DNA of 34,672 nucleotides, from positions 1 through 34,672 of IMG/VR virus record IMGVR_UViG_3300011115_000875; one strand, given 5' to 3'. The notes below the pieces were generated by a model that was not told where the DNA came from, did not search any database, and saw nothing but the letters and a program-made list of their open reading frames with translations. The DNA is from a virus. The translations under genes and the position numbers were made by a program. This document shows positions 4,644-25,760 of this stretch, piece after piece (position 1 is the stretch's first letter; each line of letters opens with the position of its first letter).

Positions 4644-4673
4644 GCCCACCCTTTTACCGGGGTGGGCTTTTTT
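4644..4673 (+). terminator. Rho-independent terminator after the capsid gene
   Basis: An 8-bp perfect stem GCCCACCC / GGGTGGGC (4644-4651 and 4660-4667) is followed by six T residues. It should end or reduce transcription after the major capsid gene and so set the capsid level above that of the neck and tail genes. The same stem core (GCCCACC / GGTGGGC) is used at 30786. Confidence 0.88.
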
Positions 4674-4677
4674 GGGC

Positions 4678-5268
4678 ATGACCGATTACTCACAAGGTGG
4701 AGAGCAGGCCGTCATCTTGGCGCATTGCGGCAAGCCTGGCGTGTTCCTCGACATCGGAGCCAACGACGGCGTTACCTTCTCCAACACCCGCGCTCTTGTT
4801 GAACTGGGCTGGCGTGGCGTTCATGTTGAGCCTGGTGCTTTGGTCTTCGCCAAACTCAAGCAAAACCTACCCAATGCCTGCGCTTATCAGGTGGCCGTCT
4901 CGGATCAGGACGGAAAGGCTGCGTTTCACGAATCTGATGCCAACAGCAGCCACATGGTTTCGTCGCTGGTCGATTCTGAGAAAGAAAGATGGAGCTGCTA
5001 TACCTTCACTACGGTTCAAGTTGAGACCATGACCGTTGCCAGCCTACTCAAGCGCGCCGAGCTTTCTTGTGTGGATTTTCTGAGCATCGACGCCGAAGGA
5101 TCTGATCTCCTCATCTTCCGCCAGTTCGATCTTTCTGCGCTTGGTGTTCGACTGGTTTGCGTCGAGCACAATGGGAAAAGCCTGACTGATTTTGATGCCC
5201 ACGCTTCCGAGCATGGCTTTAGTCGAATTTTCAACAATGCGGCCAATGTTATATACCTGAAAAAATGA
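4678..5268 (+). CDS. FkbM-family methyltransferase
   Basis: S-adenosylmethionine-dependent O-methyltransferase of the FkbM type, 196 residues, usually acting on sugars. Motif I FLDIGANDG lies at residues 23-31, the acidic residue for the SAM ribose is in HVEPG near 49-53, and DFLSIDAEGSDL near 135-146 is the characteristic FkbM segment. An upstream TTG at 4674 is in frame, but it lies in the T-tract of the terminator, so ATG 4678 is preferred. The gene starts only four bases after the terminator and sits between capsid and neck genes like an inserted extra gene. With three glycosyltransferases in the genome, a role in glycan modification is likely (inference). Confidence 0.85.
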   Translation: MTDYSQGGEQAVILAHCGKPGVFLDIGANDGVTFSNTRALVELGWRGVHVEPGALVFAKLKQNLPNACAYQVAVSDQDGKAAFHESDANSSHMVSSLVDSEKERWSCYTFTTVQVETMTVASLLKRAELSCVDFLSIDAEGSDLLIFRQFDLSALGVRLVCVEHNGKSLTDFDAHASEHGFSRIFNNAANVIYLKK

Positions 5269-11912: not shown

Positions 11913-12222
11913 AATCCCACTTGGTGTTGTTCAAGTCAGAGATGACATTTGCAAGGATTGCCCGACGCCTTGCACGCCTCGGCCAGATTCATCGTCGCCA
12001 TGTTCCCATTGCGACATTAACCGCTGGGGAACCTATGGTCAATGCACGCCAGAAGCCACTAAAACTGCACCTATGCGCGGACTCGGTGACTTAATCGCCA
12101 AGATTGCAGAGCCTATCGCCAACGTGATCGGAATCAACAAGGCAACGTGTGGGTGCCAGAAGCGTCAAGACTGGCTGAATCAGGCTGTTCCATTTGCACA
12201 GTCTCAGGATTCCGCGCGATAA
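11896..12222 (+). CDS. Small cysteine-rich protein, unknown
   Basis: A 108-residue protein with ten or so cysteines, including DDICKDCPTPC near 17-27, CSHC near 37-40 and CGCQKRQDW near 86-94. The arrangement would suit one or two metal sites or disulfides. The ATG at 11896 is chosen because upstream in-frame codons lie deep inside the previous gene and the protein sense starts there (MAQLAKIPLGV). Its 3' end overlaps the end of the opposite-strand glycosyltransferase gene by 89 bases. Probably part of the tail tip together with the Cys-rich N-terminus of the preceding protein. Confidence 0.55.
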   Translation: MAQLAKIPLGVVQVRDDICKDCPTPCTPRPDSSSPCSHCDINRWGTYGQCTPEATKTAPMRGLGDLIAKIAEPIANVIGINKATCGCQKRQDWLNQAVPFAQSQDSAR

Positions 12223-13861
12223 ACAAAGCACGTCCGCGCTCATAGCGTTCTGGTGCATTGGTCGCTTGGTAGGTGGCATCCAGTTCGCCCTTGCCGAAGA
12301 ATGGATGAGCATGATCAAAAACCAGATCCTCCCGGCGATCAATGACGACGCCATCCGCCCACGCTCGATGCGAAAATTCGTTGTCGGAAAACACCGATTC
12401 GTAACCCTCAAAGAACAAATCTCCCTGCGCTTCCAGACGCTCGCGGTTGAGGATTGCCATGCAAAGGAGCGAGTCCTTGCGGTTGCCATCTGACACGGCC
12501 AGCACAGCACCAGCCAGAATGTCTTCGAAAGCGTTTGAGATCGTTGCATCCCAGTCTTGAGGCGGACTAAAATCATCCGAAAGCTGGATTAGGATTTCGC
12601 CGCGAGCCATCCGCGCTGCAGCATTCCAAGCGCGAACGCATGAACCAGGCTCAACAACAACGTGCCGAAACTGCTTGGCTAGCTCACGGCTTGCTTTGTC
12701 GTCCGAGTCCACGGCCATGATATATTCAATATCGTCTGGCTCCGATGCTAAGGCCATCCACTTCTCGCGGCACTCCCAAGCTTTCTGCGGCCGATTTCTA
12801 GTGGCATGAAGCAATGTGATTTTGGGCGAGTAGTTTTCAGTTTTAGCAGGCAATCCATTGAGCCGTTCACACCGCTCCAACAAATCACGGCCATGCCACC
12901 GATACCATTTTGCCTCAAACGTCCACGGCCGGCGCTCATCTGGTGGAACCGGAATAGCAACCATCCGCCGCGCCAGCTCTAAGGCACGCACCGGCTCGCC
13001 ACCCTCAAGCGCAGCCAGCACAGCGCCGGCCAGAGGCTCACGTAATTGAGGCATCTCGACCACTCCACGGCCGAACCACTCAAGCGCCTCCTTTGGCGTC
13101 TTGGCCAACCGCCCGAGATTCATGATAATCTCAAAGCGGAATGTCTCGTGGAGGTTAGGGAAACCCAACGCCAGCAGGCCAAACTCCCGCGCTTTTTCTT
13201 CTGAGCGCGCGTAGAAATGTTCCTGGTGCACGTAGAAAAGCTGCGAGCCAGCTTCGCGTAGGGCATTTGAAAGGATGCGAAGGTTGCGGTCGTGGCTGCG
13301 TGGTTTGGCTGCAACTGGCGAATGCACCCAGACCGGAGCATCCACCGACAGCCGCTTGTCTCCATCGCGCAGAATTAGGTTTTCATGCACGGCAAACTGC
13401 CACCGCCGGCCAGCTTCAAACAGGCTGCGACGAATGCACCGCTCGCGCCACGGTGCTTTGTTGGTGCCGGGCACGTCGTAAGTGAACAGCAGCAGGTCGG
13501 CTTTAGTATCGGCACAAGCTTGAATAATGCCCGCTGGATCTCCGCGCAGCGTGTCATCGGCATCGGCCCAGAAGATCCAGTCGCCGGTTGCCAACTCAAA
13601 AGCCTGATTACGTGCGGCCGCGAAGTTATCGACATGCCGCCAATCCTTGGCCGAATCGCCGTTTCGGTAGATGCCAAACTGGATCTCGACGCCCAGCTCC
13701 TCGGCAATCTTATGGGCGAGATCGACTGTCTCATCTGGCTCCTGGGCACCTATGGCTTGGACAATACAGAGTTCATGGAACGAGCCAGCAAACGAGCGCA
13801 GGCAATGCTCTATGTGAGCCGCCTCATTTCCAACTATCATGGCGAGGGAGATTTTGGGCAT
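12134..13861 (-). CDS. Two-domain GT2 glycosyltransferase
   Basis: A 575-residue cytoplasmic enzyme that probably transfers sugars from nucleotide donors. The N-terminal GT-A domain has the opening strand ISLAMIVGNEAAHIEHCL and the metal-binding DADD at 100-103. Residues about 190-340 are helical and repeat-like (TPR type). A second GT-A-like domain starts near 346 (PKITLLHATRNRPQ) with DSDD at 385-388 and SDDF at 428-431. It runs against the tail operon and lies between the tail-tip genes and the displaced gpW/portal pair, overlapping the 11896 gene at its 3' end. This looks like an inserted extra gene. The substrate is unknown: capsid, tail or host glycan. Confidence 0.88.
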   Translation of the reverse strand: MPKISLAMIVGNEAAHIEHCLRSFAGSFHELCIVQAIGAQEPDETVDLAHKIAEELGVEIQFGIYRNGDSAKDWRHVDNFAAARNQAFELATGDWIFWADADDTLRGDPAGIIQACADTKADLLLFTYDVPGTNKAPWRERCIRRSLFEAGRRWQFAVHENLILRDGDKRLSVDAPVWVHSPVAAKPRSHDRNLRILSNALREAGSQLFYVHQEHFYARSEEKAREFGLLALGFPNLHETFRFEIIMNLGRLAKTPKEALEWFGRGVVEMPQLREPLAGAVLAALEGGEPVRALELARRMVAIPVPPDERRPWTFEAKWYRWHGRDLLERCERLNGLPAKTENYSPKITLLHATRNRPQKAWECREKWMALASEPDDIEYIMAVDSDDKASRELAKQFRHVVVEPGSCVRAWNAAARMARGEILIQLSDDFSPPQDWDATISNAFEDILAGAVLAVSDGNRKDSLLCMAILNRERLEAQGDLFFEGYESVFSDNEFSHRAWADGVVIDRREDLVFDHAHPFFGKGELDATYQATNAPERYERGRALFIARNPETVQMEQPDSASLDASGTHTLPC

Positions 13862-18088: not shown

Positions 18089-18457
18089 ATGATAACCGCT
18101 GAAGACATTCAAAACGCTCTTGGACTCACGGGTGTTACCCTTTACGGCGACGGCACAATCACTGCGGATCAACCCGTGAGCGAGGCGCAACAGACTCGCG
18201 TCAGATTATGGTTTGAAGATGGTGAAGTGAGCCCTTCGCTTACGCAGTCCGGTGCAACGGTCATCCGCCGTCTCACCGATGCCGAGATCGTTGCGCTGGA
18301 TTCATCCAGTCACCCCGCCGCGATTCGCGCCAAGATGCTCGCCCAATCTGAGGGTGTAATCTCCGAGTCAGATCCAGATTTCGCCTCGCTGACTGGCGCA
18401 CTCGACCAGCTCGGAATCATCGTATCTAACCGCTGGGAAATCCTACTTGCGCCATGA
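18089..18457 (+). CDS. Unknown protein, possibly fibre-associated
   Basis: A 122-residue acidic protein, unrecognised. It starts one base after the fibre stop as TAAAATG, so a fibre chaperone or fibre-tip role is possible. The N-terminal part is beta-like (LTGVTLYGDGTITADQ) and the rest helical (DAEIVALDSSSHPAAIRAKMLAQ). It ends overlapping the small membrane protein start (ATGA). ATG 18089 is used since earlier in-frame starts lie inside the fibre gene. Confidence 0.5.
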   Translation: MITAEDIQNALGLTGVTLYGDGTITADQPVSEAQQTRVRLWFEDGEVSPSLTQSGATVIRRLTDAEIVALDSSSHPAAIRAKMLAQSEGVISESDPDFASLTGALDQLGIIVSNRWEILLAP

Positions 18458-18558
18458 ATGACGAAAAAGATGCTTTGCAGTTTCTAATGGCTCTGGCCGT
18501 TGCAGCCAGCGGAGCTATCATCGGATTAAGTTATTTTCTGTTCTGCTTATTTGTATGA
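18454..18558 (+). CDS. Small single-span membrane protein
   Basis: A 34-residue protein (MNDEKDALQFLMAL start) with a short acidic N-terminus and one hydrophobic segment from about residue 10 to 34. It overlaps both neighbours by ATGA, which strongly supports that it is translated. Size and context, next to a lipoprotein-like and a holin-like gene, fit a lysis accessory protein such as a small holin or antiholin. Function is inferred. Confidence 0.55.
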   Translation: MNDEKDALQFLMALAVAASGAIIGLSYFLFCLFV

Positions 18559-19430
18559 CCTGCAAATGCCAGCATCCCGCACCGCTCAAGCCAACTGCTC
18601 AAGCTTGGTATCATTTAAGGTGCGCTGGCCGGCATTTGTTAAAGGCATTCGCAGCTTTGTTGCTCTGTCGTGTTGCTCCATTCATCATCTCTCTCTGCAC
18701 ACTTGGCGTTTGTTTGCTTTTCACTGGTTGCAATACGGCACGCAAGCTATCGCCAGCCGTTGAATCCGCGCCCATTCTGGCGAGTCAAGAGGGAAAAGAT
18801 ACCACCATCGTTTCTGAAGCCGCTAAAATCGACGCAATCGCACCAGCGGCCAAGCCTCACACCGACGCTCAGCGTGCTGCCGTCGCAGCCGCTCCCGCCG
18901 CTGACGTAGCCAAGTTGGTCAACGGATACGACGCCAAGATCAAAGAACTCACCGATCAAATCGTTGGCCTCAACAAAATGATCGAGAACCTCAAGGACGC
19001 AGAGCAGAAAAAGCAGGTCGCCACTCTTCGCTGGTTTGGACTCGGTGCGTTGGCTATCGCCGGACTGCTCGCCTGGGCGCAGCAGGTTCGCTTCGCAGCA
19101 GTCGGTGCGCTGGTCGGAATCGTTTCTCTCGGCCTTGCCCAGCTCATTTCCCAGCCGTGGTTCATGCCGGCCGTTGCCATCGCCTCAGGTGTTGCTCTGC
19201 TCGCCCTTGGCTGGGCTGCGTGGCATGCTTACGAAAAAGGCACGCTTGCTCGCAAAGTTGAGCTTGAGTCCAGCCGACTTAAAAATGCTTTGACCACCAT
19301 TGTTCCAGCCGTTGATTCGGCCATCGACTCGCTCGACGACGCCGCAAAAACCGTGGTCAAGAATGCTTTGTCCCGATCAATGGATGCAGACCACAAGCGA
19401 CTCATCAAAGAGATCCGCGCACGGCTTTAA
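18555..19430 (+). CDS. Membrane protein with lipobox-like signal and three membrane segments
   Basis: A 291-residue protein. A hydrophobic stretch (about 32-58) ends in LFTGC with Cys59 as a possible lipidation site; Phe at position -3 is slightly off the consensus. Then come an Ala-rich periplasmic-like part, a coiled coil (118-155) and three hydrophobic segments at about 158-175, 180-198 and 203-223, and a charged C-terminal helix. It may belong to the lysis functions (spanin-like) or be a structural membrane protein. The start overlaps the previous stop (ATGA). The 42-residue N-region is unusually long for a lipoprotein signal, so the true start is uncertain. Confidence 0.5.
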   Translation: MTCKCQHPAPLKPTAQAWYHLRCAGRHLLKAFAALLLCRVAPFIISLCTLGVCLLFTGCNTARKLSPAVESAPILASQEGKDTTIVSEAAKIDAIAPAAKPHTDAQRAAVAAAPAADVAKLVNGYDAKIKELTDQIVGLNKMIENLKDAEQKKQVATLRWFGLGALAIAGLLAWAQQVRFAAVGALVGIVSLGLAQLISQPWFMPAVAIASGVALLALGWAAWHAYEKGTLARKVELESSRLKNALTTIVPAVDSAIDSLDDAAKTVVKNALSRSMDADHKRLIKEIRARL

Positions 19431-19459
19431 TTTACGGTATCAATTAAGTAATACGCCTC

Positions 19460-19693
19460 ATGAATTTAACGCTCGATGTGAACACAATCCTGACCAGCTT
19501 AGTCCTTGGTGGTATTGTGTGGATTCTTAAAGGCCAAAGCGCCAACAACACCGCATCGGCCCTTGCGGTGCAACGGCACGAAACTGCCGAGCGTGAGATG
19601 GTCGAGCTACGAGCGCGAGTCGTCGCAGCCGAAGCCGCCATCGCTGAGGTCTCGATTCGCGTCGCGCATCTTGAAGGCTCAAAGCAGACCTGA
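19460..19693 (+). CDS. Holin-like protein
   Basis: A 77-residue protein with one membrane segment at about 8-25 (TILTSLVLGGIVWILKG) and a coiled coil at about 35-74 (REMVELRARVVAAEAAIAE). Short N-out membrane anchor plus cytoplasmic helix is a common layout of single-span holins and of XhlA-like proteins. It lies behind the lipoprotein-like gene but about 10 kb from the lytic transglycosylase at 29672. Spanin or other membrane scaffolds are alternatives. Confidence 0.5.
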   Translation: MNLTLDVNTILTSLVLGGIVWILKGQSANNTASALAVQRHETAEREMVELRARVVAAEAAIAEVSIRVAHLEGSKQT

Positions 19694-19702
19694 TTCCACT
19701 CT

Positions 19703-20521
19703 ATGAAAACCAATAAACGCCCGAAACTTGTATTTGTTTTGAGCGACTTACATTGCGGCTCAACTCTGGCCGTGATGCCACCGAGTTTTCAGACACTGGA
19801 AGGAAACGTAATTGAGCATAACGCCATCCAGCAATGGCTTTGGACATGCTGGCTTGAAACTAAAAAATGGATTCTTGAAACCGCGGATGGCGATTCATTT
19901 GCGCTGATTATCAATGGCGATTTGATCGAAGGAAATCATCATCGCACAATGCAGATAATCTCGCCCGACGTTGCCGATCACGTAGGTGCTGCCATCGAGC
20001 TTTTAACTCCATTAGCCAAGGATGCTTCAAAGGTCTTTATCGTTCGCGGAACCGAGTGCCACACCGGCAGCATTGAAAATGCAATCGGCAAGGCTTTGAA
20101 GGCCACGCCAACGCCAGACGGAGCCGGTGCATGGGATCGCCTCTTGCTCGACGTAAACGAAACCCGCTGCGTGTTCCGCCACCATATCGGAACCTCAACC
20201 CGACTTGCGCTTTCGCTAACCCAGCTCGGCGTGCAATTGGCAGAGGAGCAGCTTGAAGCGGCCCGTGCCGGCGACCCGATCCCAACGGTTCTCTGCTGCG
20301 CGCATCGCCACAAGTTCGACCACGGTGGAAACCACAAGGGCATCGTGATTGTATCTCCACCTTGGCAGGCACTCACTCGTTTTGGTCACAAGGTTGTTAG
20401 CCAGGCCCGCACTTATCCCGGTGTGTTCGCCCTTGATTTCCGAGGCCAAAACGCTGGAGAGATTCCCCGAGTTCGCTCCTGCATTTTTGAGCCACCCACA
20501 CCCGACTCCGTTGTTTTATGA
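19703..20521 (+). CDS. Calcineurin-like metallophosphoesterase
   Basis: A 272-residue two-metal phosphoesterase. The family motifs are all present in order: DLH at 15-17, NGDLIEGNHH at 71-80, a GTECH variant of the GNHD motif at 116-120, HH at 160-161 and AHRH at 200-203. The substitution of GNHD by GTECH is notable but keeps the histidine. The substrate could be nucleic acid ends, cyclic nucleotides or a phosphoprotein; sequence alone does not decide. It sits between membrane proteins and a winged-helix-like gene, whose ATG overlaps its stop. Confidence 0.8.
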   Translation: MKTNKRPKLVFVLSDLHCGSTLAVMPPSFQTLEGNVIEHNAIQQWLWTCWLETKKWILETADGDSFALIINGDLIEGNHHRTMQIISPDVADHVGAAIELLTPLAKDASKVFIVRGTECHTGSIENAIGKALKATPTPDGAGAWDRLLLDVNETRCVFRHHIGTSTRLALSLTQLGVQLAEEQLEAARAGDPIPTVLCCAHRHKFDHGGNHKGIVIVSPPWQALTRFGHKVVSQARTYPGVFALDFRGQNAGEIPRVRSCIFEPPTPDSVVL

Positions 20522-20793
20522 GCCACACAATAAAGAAAATCCCAACACCCGCAGGCTGGTCGGAAGCGACCACGATCCGTTCCGCGCTTTTGGCGAAAAA
20601 ACCGCTGCCTCCAATTCCAGCAGGCTGGGAAACCATTCACACGCTTGCCAAAAAGGAACGCATCTCGATCTGCTCACTTCGCCGGATGATACCCGATGCA
20701 ATTGCCGCTGGTCTTGTTGAGAAAAAAAACTGGCCGCAGCCCGACTTAAATGGTCGTGTTTTGAATTACCCGATTTATCGCCGGATAAAATAG
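20518..20793 (+). CDS. Small winged-helix-like protein
   Basis: A 91-residue basic protein. The part ETIHTLAKKERISICSLRR followed by DAIAAGLVEKKN and a closing strand reads like a helix-turn-helix with a wing, similar in outline to the C-terminal domains of the 27864 and 31344 proteins (NGYTIRTAYRRIDLM, then GGLVEQK). It starts within the stop of the phosphoesterase gene (ATGA). It may be a DNA-binding regulator. Identification is by eye and tentative. Confidence 0.45.
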   Translation: MSHTIKKIPTPAGWSEATTIRSALLAKKPLPPIPAGWETIHTLAKKERISICSLRRMIPDAIAAGLVEKKNWPQPDLNGRVLNYPIYRRIK

Positions 20794-20800
20794 CTTTTCC

Positions 20801-21010
20801 ATGCGCTTAACCCTTCGCGTCGAATACAGTCACGTGGATGGTGAACGCACGTATTCCTCCGAGGTGGAGATGAGCGATAAGACCAGCATGGAAGTGGTCG
20901 AGGCTCACTGCAAAACCATGCTCAAGATTCTGGCCGATCAAGCTGCCGCAGATTGCGATGACGAAGACGATGATGAAGACGGCTGGAAAGAAACCACCGG
21001 GCAATCCTGA
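20801..21010 (+). CDS. Small acidic protein, unknown
   Basis: A 69-residue protein with a beta-like N-terminus (LTLRVEYSHVDGERTYSSEVE) and an acidic run of Asp/Glu near 52-62 (DCDDEDDDEDGW). Such acidic tails are typical of DNA-mimic or nucleic-acid-displacing proteins, but no family is recognised. Its 3' end overlaps the end of an opposite-strand reading frame (20938-21168) by 73 bases. Confidence 0.5.
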   Translation: MRLTLRVEYSHVDGERTYSSEVEMSDKTSMEVVEAHCKTMLKILADQAAADCDDEDDDEDGWKETTGQS

Positions 21011-21168
21011 CAGGCTTGAGCAACTTGATCGGCATCCAAAGTTCCAAGCAGCATTTCGCCACCGCAACGACCGCAGCATAAACCGTTGTCTTTTGTCCAT
21101 GTGATCGCTTCGCGCAAAGCTTTGTCTGCCGAATAATGCGAGCTAAAAATGAAGGCGGAAACTTTCAT
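20938..21168 (-). CDS. Possible zinc-ribbon protein
   Basis: A 76-residue opposite-strand frame with a clear pair of CxxC knuckles (CGRCGG and CQDC, 17 residues apart), which is not expected by chance from antisense sequence. The start is ATG after AAAAGCAA. The C-terminal serine run is only the antisense reading of the acidic run of the 20801 gene, so the last 15 or so residues may be fortuitous. The non-overlapping part spans an otherwise empty gap of 240 bases, which supports a real gene. Confidence 0.5.
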   Translation of the reverse strand: MKVSAFIFSSHYSADKALREAITWTKDNGLCCGRCGGEMLLGTLDADQVAQACQDCPVVSFQPSSSSSSSSQSAAA

Positions 21169-21252
21169 TTGCTTTTAGGTTGAAGGTAAAGATGCGGTGT
21201 GCTTAGCGTGTCCAATGCAGGCCATTCTGGCCCGCACTTAATCAATAAAAAT

Positions 21253-21792
21253 ATGAGCACATGGAATGGAAGACTAATGGCAGAGGGACGCAGCACATCA
21301 ATTCTGGACATGGCGGATGTCATGCTGGAGCGATGCGGAGCACGATCAACTCCGGTGGGATTGTGCGCCGAGCGCGTGCGGATCTTGATGCTTAAACAGG
21401 CCAAAGACGTTGAAGAAAAAAAGGTGATCAACCGCATAAAAGTAAATCTCCCGAATCCGAAGGCGCTCAAGCCAATCAAGATTCGCGTGAATAAAAGACG
21501 CGATGACTGCTTAAAAAAGTGGTTGGCCACGCCAGAGGATGAACGCGACTTTCACCCATTTGCTAAAAAGCACAGGATCAAACCGACCACGCTCGGTTCC
21601 TGGTTGCACGCTGCGAAAATCAACCCATACCCGCCAGCTCTGCGCGCTCGCGTTATCAATACTTACGCCGATGGAGGCATTGATCACGTCGAGAGAACCA
21701 CGAAACTCAGCCGCACTCTTGTCGTTCGTATTCTCTACGAAGCTGGAATCAAAATGCGGAAATGTGGTGCTATAAAAGACGTCCAAACATGA
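21253..21792 (+). CDS. Helix-turn-helix DNA-binding protein
   Basis: A 179-residue basic protein, probably a transcription or recombination regulator. Two helix-turn-helix-like parts are visible: FHPFAKKHRIKPTTLGSWLH near 104-123 and GGIDHVERTTKLSRTLVVRIL near 143-163. ATG 21253, after CAATAAAAAT, is preferred to GTG 21199 because the A-rich context matches other starts here. Its N-terminal NGRLMAEGR resembles SLNGRMMADR in the 21817 protein, so both may share an origin. The end of the gene lies inside the first copy of a 47-bp direct repeat. Confidence 0.6.
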   Translation: MSTWNGRLMAEGRSTSILDMADVMLERCGARSTPVGLCAERVRILMLKQAKDVEEKKVINRIKVNLPNPKALKPIKIRVNKRRDDCLKKWLATPEDERDFHPFAKKHRIKPTTLGSWLHAAKINPYPPALRARVINTYADGGIDHVERTTKLSRTLVVRILYEAGIKMRKCGAIKDVQT

Positions 21793-21827
21793 ACCGCAGG
21801 CGCGGAAGAATACTCTATGAAAATGAC
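21781..21827 (+). repeat. 47-bp direct repeat, copy 1
   Basis: The sequence from GTCCAA to ATGAAAATGAC recurs at 22048-22093 with one substitution and a short indel near base 8. It contains the last codons of the upstream gene and the ATG of the next one. The copies bracket the 21817-22086 gene with a period of 266-267 bases. Confidence 0.85.
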
Positions 21828-22086
21828 TAAACTGACCGAAAACGATACGCCTAGAACAGATAAACAAGCTATGGATAGCAGCTTAAACGGTAGAATGATG
21901 GCCGACAGGGTAGACGCCGACTTCGCCCGCGAGCTGGAGCGCGAAAACGCTGCGCTCAAAAAAGCGGGAAATGCGATTCGATTCATGCAAATAGAAACCG
22001 AACTGCAATGCTCCGAAAAGCTAGCCGCATGGGATGCTTTGGCTAACGTCCAAGATGAACCTCAGGCGCGGAAGAATACTCTATGA
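21817..22086 (+). CDS. Unknown protein bracketed by direct repeats
   Basis: An 89-residue protein starting with MKMTKLTENDTPRTD, a beginning often seen in small phage proteins, followed by a helical part rich in Glu and Ala (FARELERENAALKKAG, near 37-52). No domain is recognised. Both ends of the gene lie in copies of the same 46-47-bp repeat, so start and final codons derive from duplicated sequence. It is probably a mobile or duplicated accessory gene. The stop overlaps the next ATG (ATGA). Confidence 0.55.
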   Translation: MKMTKLTENDTPRTDKQAMDSSLNGRMMADRVDADFARELERENAALKKAGNAIRFMQIETELQCSEKLAAWDALANVQDEPQARKNTL

Positions 22087-22093
22087 AAATGAC
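22048..22093 (+). repeat. 47-bp direct repeat, copy 2
   Basis: This is the second copy of the repeat at 21781-21827. It supplies the last codons of the 21817 gene and the ATG of the 22083 gene. Its GAACCTCAGGCGC part could pair weakly with the right half-site at 22127-22150. Confidence 0.85.
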
Positions 22094-22331
22094 AGCTAAA
22101 AATATCTCGAATGACCAGTTGCCCTCGTTGGCTCTAGCGCCTTGTTCGGCTCTGTCTGGTGGCCCCGAAATCTGGAACGTAGTTGCATGGGGCGACGCGC
22201 GCGAATGCCGATCCATCTCATCTGTGATGGAGGAAGTCCGCGAAGCAGTAGAACTCGGATGCCGAACGGTGTCCATTGAGCGTCAGGGTATGCCGAACGC
22301 CCGGAGTGAGCCGCCCCAGTCGAACACCTGA
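22083..22331 (+). CDS. Unknown protein, likely integron-type cassette cargo
   Basis: An 82-residue protein. The meaningful-looking part is about residues 25-68, containing EIWNVVAWGDARE, SISSVMEEVREAVELG and RTVSIERQG, an alpha/beta pattern without a known family. The first about 22 residues are encoded by repeat and half-site sequence, and the last about 12 by the left arm of the attC-like site at 22292. The actual start may therefore be later, for example a CTG at 22152; none of the standard codons gives a clean alternative. It lies in cassette A (22144-22410). Confidence 0.5.
   Translation: MKMTAKNISNDQLPSLALAPCSALSGGPEIWNVVAWGDARECRSISSVMEEVREAVELGCRTVSIERQGMPNARSEPPQSNT
22127..22150 (+). 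other. attC-like right half-site opening cassette A
   Basis: GTTGGCTCTAGCG at 22127 is followed, 17 bases from its start, by GTTCGGC (22144-22150). The same layout and spacing recur at 22394 and 23428. It opens the 267-bp cassette A, whose end carries the exact complement GCCGAAC at 22292. A matching left arm upstream is weak (GATGAAC at 22054). Confidence 0.6.
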
Positions 22332-22417
22332 AACTTTATATGCAAACCGACTTTCAAATGACCTGCGATACAAGCAGTCTGGCAAGTATAGGGGTTGGCT
22401 CTAGTCCTTTGTTGGGC
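22292..22417. other. attC-like recombination site 1, between cassettes A and B
   Basis: This is an imperfect palindrome of 126 bp. The left arm begins GCCGAAC and contains GAGCCGCCCC; the right arm contains GGGGTTGGCTC and ends GTTGGGC. Pairing of GAGCC-G-CCCC with GGGGTTGGCTC leaves bulged bases, as attC stems do. GTTGGGC fits the consensus GTTRRRY, and the size is within the known attC range. Consensus, spacing and the complementarity rule are visible; recombination activity is inferred. Confidence 0.7.
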
Positions 22418-22420
22418 TCC

Positions 22421-23338
22421 GTGGTTCGTTTCTCAACGCCACGGAAACCCAAACTAGCCGTATCTTTTTCTGGAGGCCGAACCTCTGCTGTGATGACAAA
22501 GCTCCTTTGGGAGCAATACCGAGAAACCCACGAACTAGCGGTCTGCTTCGCGAATACCGGTTGCGAACATCCGGCAACGCTCGATTTCGTGGACGCCTGC
22601 GATAAGCACTTTGGGTGGGGAGTCGTGTGGCTAGAGGCAGTAGTAACGCATGGTGAGCGAGTGAGCATCAGGCACAAAGTGGTCAGCTATGAAACCGCCG
22701 CTCGAAAAGGTGAGCCGTTTGAGGAATACATAAAAAAGCACGGTCTTCCGGGGCCGACACATCCACACTGCACATCTCGACTAAAAGAAGAAGTGATGGA
22801 TTCATATAGGCATCGAGAACTTGGATGGGAGAAGGGCGAATACTGGACAGCTATAGGCATCCGAGCTGACGAAATGGATAGGGTAAGCGAGAAACGCTTA
22901 GAAAAAAGGTTCGTCTATCCGCTGGTGAAATCAGGATGGAGAAAAAATGACATAGCAAAAGAGATAGAATCGTGGCCGTTCGATCTACAACTACCGGGCG
23001 ACCATCTCGGCAACTGCACATGGTGCTGGAAAAAAAGCATCCGCAAGCTTTTGACCGTGGCCGCACAGCACCCCCGCGAACTAGACTTCCCTGAGCGCAT
23101 GGAAGCTGAACACGCGGGCATCGACAATGCCGGGACGGGTAGCGGTGAACGCTTCTTCTTCCGTGATCGGCGGCGCGTGGCAGATCTGCGCCGGATGGCA
23201 GCAGATGGCGGCTTCGTTCCGTATTCTGACGCTGCGCGGGAGCAAGGGCTGTTTGATTTTGCGGGCGCAGGCTACGACCTAGAACTAGACACAGGCTCCG
23301 CTTGCGGAGAGTCCTGCGAGATAGGGGCCGATGATTGA
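22421..23338 (+). CDS. PAPS-reductase-family protein (cassette cargo)
   Basis: A PP-loop enzyme of the phosphoadenosine-phosphosulfate reductase family, 305 residues. The nucleotide loop SFSGGRTSAVM lies at 15-25, followed by FANTGCEHPATLDFV, HCTSRLKEEVM, IGIRADEMDR and a late LGNCTWCWKKS with a CxxC pair. Relatives in phages are linked to sulfur or nucleic-acid modification, but the reaction here is unknown. GTG 22421 is chosen: it lies four bases after the attC-like right end, as cassette genes usually do, and family members begin just before the PP-loop. ATG 22340, in frame, would add 27 residues read from the attC-like site. The stop lies 10 bases before the next left arm. Confidence 0.82.
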   Translation: MVRFSTPRKPKLAVSFSGGRTSAVMTKLLWEQYRETHELAVCFANTGCEHPATLDFVDACDKHFGWGVVWLEAVVTHGERVSIRHKVVSYETAARKGEPFEEYIKKHGLPGPTHPHCTSRLKEEVMDSYRHRELGWEKGEYWTAIGIRADEMDRVSEKRLEKRFVYPLVKSGWRKNDIAKEIESWPFDLQLPGDHLGNCTWCWKKSIRKLLTVAAQHPRELDFPERMEAEHAGIDNAGTGSGERFFFRDRRRVADLRRMAADGGFVPYSDAAREQGLFDFAGAGYDLELDTGSACGESCEIGADD

Positions 23339-23347
23339 TTTCTGTAT

Positions 23348-23451
23348 GCCCAACGCGCCCGGTGAGCCACGCGACCTCTGACGCCCGAAGGCTCTATGGC
23401 CTAGCGCATTCCGTGACGGTCAATCGCGTTGGCTCTAGCGGCTGGTTAGGC
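23348..23451. other. attC-like recombination site 2, end of cassette B
   Basis: This is an imperfect palindrome of 104 bp. The left arm begins GCCCAAC and contains GAGCCACGCGA; the right arm contains TCGCGTTGGCTC and ends GTTAGGC. The pairing GAGCC-ACGCGA with TCGCGTTGGCTC leaves one extra base, like the extrahelical base of attC. GCCCAAC is the exact complement of GTTGGGC, which opens cassette B at 22411. The 193 bases between the neighbouring genes hold only this site and a short palindrome. Confidence 0.75.
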
Positions 23452-23496
23452 TCCGATGATTTATTTTCGAGAAACTTTGATTTTCCGCTTGCATAT

Positions 23497-23509
23497 CCCG
23501 ACTGTCGGG
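23497..23509. promoter_or_regulatory. Short perfect palindrome upstream of the 23532 gene
   Basis: CCCGAC-T-GTCGGG, a 6-1-6 dyad, lies 23 bases before the ATG at 23532. It could be an operator or a small hairpin; no T-tract follows that would make it a terminator. Confidence 0.35.
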
Positions 23510-23531
23510 TTTCTAGTGTATCCCGTAACCT

Positions 23532-23732
23532 ATGAACAACACTCGCAAACCTCGCAATCTGATCAACAAAACGACAGGCATCCGCGCCATTTTCATCAAG
23601 CTGGATAACGGCGACGTGAAGGCACAGACGCTGGATATTGACGGCACGGTAATCGACCAAGGCGTAATGAGCGCCGCCGATGCTCGCCATCAAGCGGCGC
23701 AAGACCGCAAACACGGATTTGTAGCCGCATGA
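23532..23732 (+). CDS. Unknown small protein
   Basis: A 66-residue basic protein (MNNTRKPRNLINKTTG start) with a beta-like centre (IRAIFIKLDNGDVKAQTLDIDG) and a helical end (SAADARHQAAQDRKHG). It is not recognised. It is the first gene after the attC-like site at 23348-23451 and so the first gene of the possible cassette C. Its stop overlaps the start of the next small gene (ATGA). Confidence 0.55.
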   Translation: MNNTRKPRNLINKTTGIRAIFIKLDNGDVKAQTLDIDGTVIDQGVMSAADARHQAAQDRKHGFVAA

Positions 23733-23896
23733 AGTGCCCGCACTGCGGAAAGAAAATCAACGTGGGCGCTCTGCTGCGAAGCAAGCGCCCCACTCCTGCG
23801 CAGCGGGAGGCAGCAAAACTGAACGGCAGAAAGGGCGGACGCCCCAAAAAGGAAACCAATGATACCCGAATACCTAGAAAAACAAGTGACCAATAA
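23729..23896 (+). CDS. Small zinc-knuckle, basic-tail protein
   Basis: A 55-residue protein starting MKCPHCGKKINVGALL, with one CxxC knuckle, then a basic stretch with NGRKGGRPKK, similar to an AT-hook. It is coupled to the gene before it by an ATGA overlap and overlaps the next gene by 38 bases. The composition suggests nucleic-acid binding, for instance in regulation. The family is not known. Confidence 0.55.
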   Translation: MKCPHCGKKINVGALLRSKRPTPAQREAAKLNGRKGGRPKKETNDTRIPRKTSDQ

Positions 23897-24230
23897 CGCC
23901 CTCCTAAACTACTGCCACGAACTAGAACAGTCCGTGAAATACTGGAAGGATAAGGCGGAGACGACATCAAAAAGCATGCACATGATTCATAGCGAAGCTG
24001 GCGAGAAGCACGCTGACCAACAGGCCGAGATTGCGCTGTGGGCAAGCGCGGCGGAATCGCTGTGGGACTTGATGGACGACATCGACACGCTGAGCGACTC
24101 CATCAGGCCACGCGACGAGGAAAGCCACGCGAAGTTCTATCGGCTCACGATGGAGCTGGTAAAGCGCCGCAACGACCATGTGCGCCACAACGAAACCGGC
24201 GGGCTGTCTTTGGTTTTGCCGTCTGCCTAA
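23859..24230 (+). CDS. Unknown helical protein
   Basis: A 123-residue acidic, mostly helical protein with probable coiled coils (LNYCHELEQSVKYWKDKAE near 16-34 and the DDIDTLSDSIRPRDEE part near 73-88). No enzyme motif is visible. The ATG follows GGAAACCA and lies in the previous gene. Its stop codon is part of GCCTAAC (24225-24231), the complement of the GTTAGGC that opens the possible cassette C, so the gene may be the last of that cassette. Confidence 0.55.
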   Translation: MIPEYLEKQVTNNALLNYCHELEQSVKYWKDKAETTSKSMHMIHSEAGEKHADQQAEIALWASAAESLWDLMDDIDTLSDSIRPRDEESHAKFYRLTMELVKRRNDHVRHNETGGLSLVLPSA

Positions 24231-24231
24231 C
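24225..24231. other. Possible left core (R'') ending cassette C
   Basis: GCCTAAC here is the exact complement of GTTAGGC at 23445-23451, and it coincides with the stop of the 23859 gene. This is where an integron cassette would carry its left core. Unlike the two other sites, no GAGCC arm follows and no convincing right half-site was found downstream. A chance match of 7 bases in about 800 has a probability of roughly 5 percent. Confidence 0.35.
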
Positions 24232-24272
24232 AGTAGATTAGACGGAACCGAAAAATGAACGTAAGACGTAAA

Positions 24273-24581
24273 TCAATACACCGCACGCTCCCTAAGAACC
24301 CGAGTTAATAGATCCAGCATCGGGCCGCTCATCAACGTTGTTGGAGTGCAACGCAACACGCACCAACCCGCCGCCGCAGCGTGATTATATTTTTCGCAGT
24401 CAGCAAGGTAACCCTTACCGCGAGTATGCCGGCCACCAGTCCAGACCCCTCCCTCCACCTCGACGGCTACCTTCAGATCCGGCCATGCAAAATCAAATCT
24501 CCATTTGCGTTCAGCGTGAAATCGGTGCTCGGTTACAGGAGCCGGGAGACCCAAAGATTTAAGGATGAGCTGGAATGTCAT
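24273..24581 (-). CDS. PD-(D/E)XK-type nuclease, DUF559/VSR-like
   Basis: A 102-residue single-domain nuclease. Residues RFDFAWPDLKVAVEVEGGVW (28-47) give the catalytic pattern Asp30, Glu41 and Glu43 on the second strand. WTGGRHTRGKGYLADCEKYN follows, and the strand GWCVLRCTP at 72-80 completes the fold. Small nucleases like this often accompany phage recombination genes and may nick or trim DNA. It is transcribed away from the recombination operon that starts at 24670. The start is ATG at 24581. Confidence 0.78.
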   Translation of the reverse strand: MTFQLILKSLGLPAPVTEHRFHAERKWRFDFAWPDLKVAVEVEGGVWTGGRHTRGKGYLADCEKYNHAAAAGWCVLRCTPTTLMSGPMLDLLTRVLRERAVY

Positions 24582-24630
24582 GCTCTGGTTTAAGTCGTAA
24601 AATAATTATTCCAACTTGGACAGAAAGTGG

Positions 24631-24660
24631 TTGACTTGTCTTTTTCTTGTTGGTCTTAAT
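24631..24660 (+). promoter_or_regulatory. Candidate promoter for the DNA-metabolism operon
   Basis: TTGACT (24631-24636) and CTTAAT (24655-24660) are 18 bases apart, resembling -35 and -10 boxes. Transcription would begin only a few bases before the ATG at 24670, giving an almost leaderless message. TTGACTT, nine bases, then TTGTTG recurs upstream of the 32298 gene (32263-32284). The gap of 88 bases lies between two divergent genes, as expected for a promoter region. Confidence 0.5.
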
Positions 24661-24669
24661 CGCAGCGCA

Positions 24670-24840
24670 ATGAAGAAAATCTCATTCACAATTACGCCGA
24701 CGCAGCACGCGGCTTTTGAGGCAGCTCGAAAGTCATCTGCGCTTGGTATCGAGCCAGCCGCAGCCGTGGCGCGCAGGCTTTTTCTCATAGGCCTATCTCA
24801 GGTCGGTATCCAACCCACAAAACTAAAACTGAAAAAATGA
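24670..24840 (+). CDS. Small ribbon-helix-helix-like protein
   Basis: A 56-residue basic protein. KISFTITPTQHAAFEAARKSS, followed by a second helix EPAAAVARRLFLIGLSQ, fits a short strand plus two helices, as in CopG/Arc repressors. It is the first gene after the candidate promoter and could regulate its own operon. It ends in LKLKK with the next ATG in the same AAAAAATGA. ATG 24670 is used rather than an upstream in-frame start at 24616, which would precede the promoter. Confidence 0.55.
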   Translation: MKKISFTITPTQHAAFEAARKSSALGIEPAAAVARRLFLIGLSQVGIQPTKLKLKK

Positions 24841-25760
24841 ACATATCCAAAGGCAAACAGAAGCAAGCCGTTCGCGCCGTAATCTACGGCGTTGAAGGCA
24901 TCGGAAAATCCACATTCGCGGCTGGGCTTCCCAGTCCGCTTTTCCTTGATCTTGAAAAAGGCACGTCGCATCTGGACGTGGCTCGCGCCGATGTCGAAAC
25001 ATGGGCTGACCTTGAATTGGCCCTTACCGAGTGCCTCACCACCGACTTTGAAACCATCGTCATTGACACCGCCGACTGGGCTGAAGCCGCTTGTGCCGAG
25101 ATGGTGCTGAAGAAGCACAACAAAAAATCCATTGAGGACTTTGGCTTTGGCAAAGGCTACGTGATTTTGGCCGAGGAGTTCCGCAAGATTATCGCTCGCG
25201 CCGAGGCGCTTGTCTCCCGCGGAAAGAATGTCGTGTTTTTGGCGCATTCCAAGATCGTCCGCCAGTCGCCACCCGACCAGACCGATGGCTTTGATCGCTA
25301 CGAACTGAAGCTGGCTAAGCAGGTTTCACCAATTCTCAAGGAGTGGGCTGACTTGTTGGGCTTCGCAAACTTCAAGACTCAGGTGGTCGAGGGATCTGAC
25401 GGTCGCAATAAGATTACCGGAGGTAAGGAACGCATCCTCCACCTTGAGCATTCGGCTGCATGGGATGCGAAGAATCGTTTTGGCCTTCCGGCCTCAATGG
25501 CATTTGCCTCCGACCAGATCAGCCACATATTTGTCGGCGTCCAGACCCGCGCTCCGCTCACCATCGCGGCCAAGGCTGAGCCTGCCAATGTTCCGGCCGA
25601 TGCGCTGGCCGAGATTGCAGCTATCGCAGCCAAGTCGCCGGCCGCGAAGAAGGTGCTGGATCGAGCCCAAGACCATTACCAAGCCGTCGAGCTTTCAGAG
25701 CTAACCACCGATCAGGCTGCAATCATCCTAAAGCGGATGCGTGAGGAGGCTGCAAAGTGA
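24837..25760 (+). CDS. Sak4-like RecA-fold ATPase (AAA_24 family)
   Basis: A 307-residue phage nucleotide-binding protein of the AAA_24 group, to which the Sak4 recombination protein belongs. Walker A YGVEGIGKST is at 17-26 and Walker B ETIVIDTAD at 72-80. The helical region after it contains KIVRQSPPDQTDGFDRY, characteristic of the family, and the C-terminal 60 residues form a helical extension. It probably promotes single-strand annealing or strand exchange with the DUF669-like protein two genes on. The order Sak4-like, Gp157, DUF669-like is a common phage module. Confidence 0.82.
   Translation: MNISKGKQKQAVRAVIYGVEGIGKSTFAAGLPSPLFLDLEKGTSHLDVARADVETWADLELALTECLTTDFETIVIDTADWAEAACAEMVLKKHNKKSIEDFGFGKGYVILAEEFRKIIARAEALVSRGKNVVFLAHSKIVRQSPPDQTDGFDRYELKLAKQVSPILKEWADLLGFANFKTQVVEGSDGRNKITGGKERILHLEHSAAWDAKNRFGLPASMAFASDQISHIFVGVQTRAPLTIAAKAEPANVPADALAEIAAIAAKSPAAKKVLDRAQDHYQAVELSELTTDQAAIILKRMREEAAK

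Follow-up and report, generated by a model that had tools for sequence, protein, structure and literature searches.

What does an array of gene cassettes do in a phage genome that has no integron integrase? The question is raised by the region 21779-24245 of IMGVR_UViG_3300011115_000875, an IMG/VR virus record that we analysed over its entire length of 34,672 bp (the window from here on). A preliminary description of this DNA had noted that the integrase is missing, and indeed no match to TIGR02249 or PF00589 was found in the record. The window encodes a terminase, a portal, a major head protein, a DNA helicase, a DnaB-like helicase and a Sak4-like annealing protein. Among annotated phages its terminase has only distant relatives, and 22083-24230 has no DNA match. 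A glycosyltransferase-like gene (phrog_13126) lies on the minus strand amid the structural genes (12134-13861), and an ORF on the plus strand (4672-5268) resembles, by eye, an FkbM-type methyltransferase.

The boxes quoted in the preliminary description are all where it had placed them. The half-site GTTGGCTCTAG occurs in the window only at 22127, 22394 and 23428, with GGCTCTAG absent elsewhere on both strands; GTTCGGC, GTTGGGC and GTTAGGC begin exactly 17 bases after its copies, and the complement boxes GCCGAAC (22292), GCCCAAC (23348) and GCCTAAC (24225) are present. The sites have the build of attC, i.e., an imperfect inverted repeat with R''/R' boxes (RYYYAAC/GTTRRRY), L''/L' boxes and an extra base on the L'' side. 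A search of Rfam gave no match. The pattern GTTGGCTCTAGNNNNNNGTTNGGC, on the other hand, was found in 42 stretches of our genome collection, nearly all from Verrucomicrobia and many from Opitutaceae, and integron integrases scoring higher than the TIGR02249 cut-off were found in 13 of the 18 repeat-bearing genomes searched. The array of sites in the complete IMCC26134 genome (CP011265) ends ca. 1 kb from a 382-bit integrase, and the box following one site complements the box preceding the next; such complementary boxes were found in 93 of 97 host cassettes. Judged by its sequence, the repeat in the window belongs to the attC of Opitutales integrons, and the attC and attI family makes an Opitutales host probable for the phage. 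Among the viral contigs the strict pattern GTTGGCTCTAGCGNNNNGTTAGGCTC found no match, while a looser one did.

A covariance model (R1) was built from 49 host attC sites, with 13 pairs showing changes on both sides. It finds additional sites in host arrays; in another 72 viral loci, 1.05 Mb in all, it gave only six matches, spread over three loci. When this host-based model of our own was run on both strands of the window, two of the three sites were matched, the third (22292-22417) fitting poorly (14 bits, E 0.1, covering 22326-22417). These matches, and the presence of the same repeat beside host integron integrases, bear out the idea of an integron-derived attC and cassette array in a phage. 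Single-strand folds of the three window attC were no better than those of shuffled sequences (z of +1.85, +0.18 and -0.48), which may mean that these attC are weak or in decay.

The direction of the array has to be turned round. The preliminary description had read it on the plus strand, with crossovers at the G^TT of 22144, 22411 and 23445, but the attC and attI are read on the minus strand. This follows from the host arrays, in which the genes run opposite to the direction first proposed and the integrase is divergent, from the strand preference of the model (23348-23451 scores 47.4 bits on the minus strand vs. 10.3 on the plus) and from the points of exchange in viral contigs. The crossovers are placed instead in the RYYYAA^C boxes at 22047, 22298, 23354 and 24231. 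The two gaps that had been noted also close: the left arm thought to be missing is GGCTAAC at 22041, with which the model recovers a whole site, and what follows 24231 is no remainder of a lost half-attC but a junction resembling attI. From 24231 leftwards, the order is cassette A (24230-23354), cassette B (23353-22298), cassette C (22297-22047) and a decayed site (21779-21838). The features are the following:

21199-21792, phage gene left of the cassettes, in the same direction as the window's cassette genes
21779-21838, minus strand, decayed terminal attC with one arm remaining (42-bp repeat), homologous to the attC of contig L279, which is intact at the equivalent position
21817-22086, plus strand, 89-aa ORF in the decayed cassette; family searches gave no convincing match
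22041-22150, minus strand, attC of cassette C with left arm GGCTAAC (R1 32.1 bits, E 4.7e-7)
22047-22297, minus strand, cassette C, 251 bp, boxes GTTCGGC and GCCGAAC complementary
22083-22331, plus strand, 82-aa ORF starting within the attC after GGAAG and continuing through its right arm; family searches gave no match
22292-22417, minus strand, attC of cassette B, with a long loop; R- and L-box arms from sequence
22298-23353, minus strand, cassette B, 1056 bp, boxes GTTGGGC and GCCCAAC complementary
22340-23338, plus strand, PAPS-reductase-domain gene of cassette B (PF01507, E 1.3e-8; phrog_424, E 1.5e-49)
23348-23451, minus strand, attC of cassette A (R1 47.4 bits, E 1.5e-11)
23354-24230, minus strand, cassette A, 877 bp, GTTAGGC (attI side) complementary to GCCTAAC (attC side)
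23532-23732 and 23859-24230, plus strand, ORFs in cassette A; a search for relatives of the 123-aa ORF found none
24225-24245, minus strand, attI-like site CTAATCTACTG^TTAGGC, where the array begins, with the crossover placed between 24231 and 24230
24273-24581, minus strand, phrog_503 gene flanking the attI-like site (E 4e-36), conserved in contigs L176 and L177-L179
24837-25760, Sak4-like annealing protein

In all three intact window cassettes the start is complementary to the R'' box of the cassette's own attC. The same holds across the viral arrays, where the two boxes of a cassette are perfectly complementary in 40 of 54 cases (9.0 +/- 2.6 expected from permutations), whereas within single viral attC the two boxes agree in no more than 15 of 70. 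Complementarity that goes with the cassette and not with the site is the mark of cassette exchange and sets these arrays apart from plain palindromes.

The putative attI rests on a comparison with seven host arrays, in which the attI beside intI reads CTAATAACACTG^TTRRRY or something near it; the corresponding stretch of the window, CTAATCTACTG^TTAGGC, runs from 24241 to 24225 on the minus strand. A weight matrix made from these 7 host sites, with one gap allowed, ranked the 24231 site first by sequence match among the 1,126 GTT sites of the window, and the homologous sites came out as the best of 152 in L176 and the best of 266 in L094, although the three sites are mutually homologous and do not constitute independent tests. 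A scan of the flank across viral contigs matched L176, L094 and also L279. The matrix missed the array starts of L084, L085, L089, L095 and L099, and we therefore claim an attI for L094 and the window's lineage only. In two of these other arrays, L085 (5075, minus strand) and L099 (5617, plus strand), the start has a different flank in common (GCCTATCTGG...GCCTA......CG^TTGGGC), perhaps a second type of attI.

Close relatives of the window differ at precisely this locus. L176 matches it over 21074-21802 (92% identity) and 24212-25760 (87%), and between these two stretches lies a series of attC-bounded cassettes that are its own. L279 matches over 18242-21833 (91%) and 24229-24792 (87%) and has a single cassette of ca. 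290 bp, with complementary boxes GTTGGCC and GGCCAAC and a helix-turn-helix product (PF01381, E 1.2e-7). Flanks that are 86-92% identical thus enclose several cassettes in L176, one in L279 and three in the window, and the flanks of all three, and that of L094, match up to AA^C and then diverge. The preliminary description had proposed a search of related phages for precise presence or absence of cassettes; L176 and L279 have other cassettes at the locus, with the junction at the AA^C on the 24231 side. That the cassettes are simply fixed phage genes can be rejected, as these two contigs carry different genes at the locus. The phrog_503 gene next to the site is also present in L177-L179, which are more distant relatives; an attI-like site was looked for after it and not found there. 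In relatives of the PAPS-reductase gene (L273-L277) attC were sought and none were seen.

Other viral contigs allow single events to be followed to the base. L097 (67.6 kb) and L089 (39.4 kb) have 552 bp in common at 99.3% identity and, in the stretches compared, nothing in common beyond it; L096 also has this segment, which consists of an attC and a Dam methyltransferase gene (PF05869). Its left junctions are GGCGAA^CGCCAG and GCCTAA^CGCCAG and its right ones GCCTAA^CGCCAC and GCCTAA^CAAGAA, while the adjacent segment of L097 is found elsewhere in L096, ending at GGCGAA^CGTCCC. Only 4-5 bases are in common at the junctions, which makes misassembly through repeats unlikely. Comparison of these contigs, as aligned, lets us conclude that cassettes of this attC family have moved between them exactly at the G^TT crossover. 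Besides, L092 and L099 have a DNA methyltransferase cassette in common at 75% identity, and L176 and L092 the body of a cassette, with different attC on its two sides.

The phage array and the sedentary chromosomal integrons of Opitutales (IMCC26134, CP011265) have the attC family, a similar attI core and the crossover point in common. They differ in that the hosts have intI beside attI, in the attC (ca. 98-103 nt and 80-114 bits in Opitutales, ca. 20-50 bits in the phages) and in the direction of the genes. When polarity was called from the longer ORF of each cassette (by a factor of 1.25), host arrays had 83 sense, 2 antisense and 12 ambiguous cassettes, whereas viral arrays had 6 sense, 32 antisense and 15 ambiguous. 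In the window, the cassette genes run antisense to their attC, among them the PAPS-reductase gene, for which an ATG within the attC is a possible start. Host contigs L106, L137 and L114 have arrays that mix high- and low-scoring attC, with all genes in sense. No genes common to host and viral cassettes were seen among the loci compared. attC of host type (83-101 bits) do occur on viral contigs (L092 3264-3362, L179 2989-3086 and L020 3905-4003), and the one in L092, lying inside an array of phage-type attC, suggests the transfer of a host cassette.

Many viral cassettes seem to have their start codon in the attC. In 21 of 26 viral attC of at least 100 nt, the frame of the gene has an ATG inside the attC and meets no stop codon on its way through the arm, vs. 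3 of 52 for the other two frames, although the counts include related cassettes, which are not fully independent, and the TAG of GGCTCTAG closes one frame and so lowers the number for the others. In shorter attC the corresponding figures are 3 of 27 and 2 of 54. Two candidate start codons of the window fall within attC, at 22083 and 22340, and the helix-turn-helix cassette of L279 is read in such a frame. A codon-position bias in the attC leaders was only suggestive. Overall, with inverted genes and starts in attC loops, the cassettes look adapted to phages. Host attC (e.g., L104, L162) are often open in frame as ATGAAAACTGAGCCTAACAAGGCGCTAGAGCC (MKTEPNKALEP), and small predicted Opitutales proteins of this kind may be translated attC and not genes.

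We consider it likely that the phage carries, at 21779-24245, an integron platform that lacks an integrase and the cassettes of which would be exchanged by an integrase acting in trans. Along the minus strand, the putative attI at 24231 would precede three intact gene cassettes and a decayed fourth, all with attC of the Opitutales family, cassettes entering and leaving at the G^TT of attI or attC. The recombinase would be the integron integrase of the Opitutales host or of a co-infecting element. As the cassette genes point against attC and attI, they could be read by a plus-strand transcript arriving from the left, and in many of them one attC arm would be translated as a leader from the start codon in the loop.

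There are other ways of reading the locus. Two of them can be put aside: that the repeats are dispersed palindromes unconnected with integrons is very improbable, because, despite their palindromic form and weak folds in the window, arrays of the same repeat adjoin integrases and attI and the complementarity follows cassettes, not sites; the host arrays already refute it. Even less credit can be given to a plain bacterial integron misbinned as viral. Such a suspicion could arise from other contigs of the set, namely L083, L089 and L097, which have few phage-family matches and owe their viral label mostly to IMG/VR itself. The window array, by contrast, is surrounded by the terminase, portal, major head protein and replication genes, the neighbouring genes are the same in three relatives and the polarity is unlike that of the hosts, which together rule out misbinned host DNA here.

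The history of the integrase deserves more thought. Several viral contigs with the same attC family do carry one: the record of L089 (354 bits, 1921-2925, adjoining the array end, divergent, and 46-50% identical to three Opitutales integrases), that of L083 (280 bits, 1198-2256, beside the array) and that of L094 (313 bits, G046:59459-60397, with one in-frame stop codon), while L084 and L087 reach 212 bits, below the cut-off. The enzyme could therefore come from a host chromosome or from a co-infecting element. L272, from the record of L083, has a Mu-type transposase and a DNA transposition protein a few kb from the integron integrase and attC, and is possibly a transposable phage with an integron. 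An ancestor of the window's lineage might also have had an intI of its own and lost it, as suggested by these contigs, among them L094, with an integrase and an attI flank like the window's; as neither the window nor the L176 fragment shows any remnant of intI, we regard this as doubtful, and it would in any case be compatible with the use of an integrase in trans today. Rather unlikely, in our view, is a fossil array, acquired once and altered later only by homologous recombination between attC repeats, e.g., by the phage's own Sak4-like protein. The missing integrase, the poor folding, the decayed attC and the cassette body common to L176 and L092 without its attC would fit, but the junctions of L097, L089 and L096 are exact to the base at AA^C with so few bases in common, and the similarity between the flanks in the window, L176, L279 and L094 ends exactly at the attI-like G^TT. 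Some exchange in the window's own lineage may have gone by such homologous recombination between attC repeats.

A platform served in trans, which we favour, would appear to go beyond what has been described. Clusters of attC without an integrase (CALINs) are known from phage genomes, with attC used by IntI1 (Qi et al., 2023; PMC9892861). The window resembles them in having three attC within 1.4 kb and no intI in the record, and to this extent the preliminary proposal of an attC cluster without an integrase stands. It does not consist of attC only: an attI-like site, recognized here by sequence and conserved in several related contigs, adjoins the first cassette, exceeding the usual definition of a CALIN, and the locus is variable, with cassette turnover in close relatives, mostly inverted genes and starts inside attC. 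It is no complete integron either, with no intI in the record and genes antisense to attC, whereas those of complete integrons run in sense and are read from a Pc promoter. ORF-11 of attI1 (PMC8876359) is likewise a case in which a site of recombination supplies the signals for translating a cassette gene, but it sits in attI and acts via translational coupling, while the phage start lies in a long attC, accompanies the cassette when it moves and shares the reading frame of the cassette's gene. In the literature covered, with most subscription papers and preprints outside its scope, we came across no earlier account of integrons in Opitutaceae, of inverted cassettes in phages or of start codons carried by attC. 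The integrase-less attI platform, the inverted cassettes and the attC-embedded starts appear to be new, phage attC clusters being already known. Whether they amount to a phage form of the integron, with attI and an array but no integrase, an enzyme in trans and its own pool of inverted, attC-started cassettes, is a proposal to which we give about even chances.

Integrons are known chiefly as bacterial gene-capture systems. If our reading is true, phages of Verrucomicrobia would swap DNA methyltransferases, regulators and metabolic genes at a single site, in an exchange network that uses the integron system with the polarity of the cassettes reversed to suit phage transcription. A captured gene would be translatable at once from the phage transcript, the long attC bringing its start codon and an N-terminal leader. 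This would offer a testable route for the flow of cassettes between host and phage and among phages, in which recent exchanges can be resolved to single bases.
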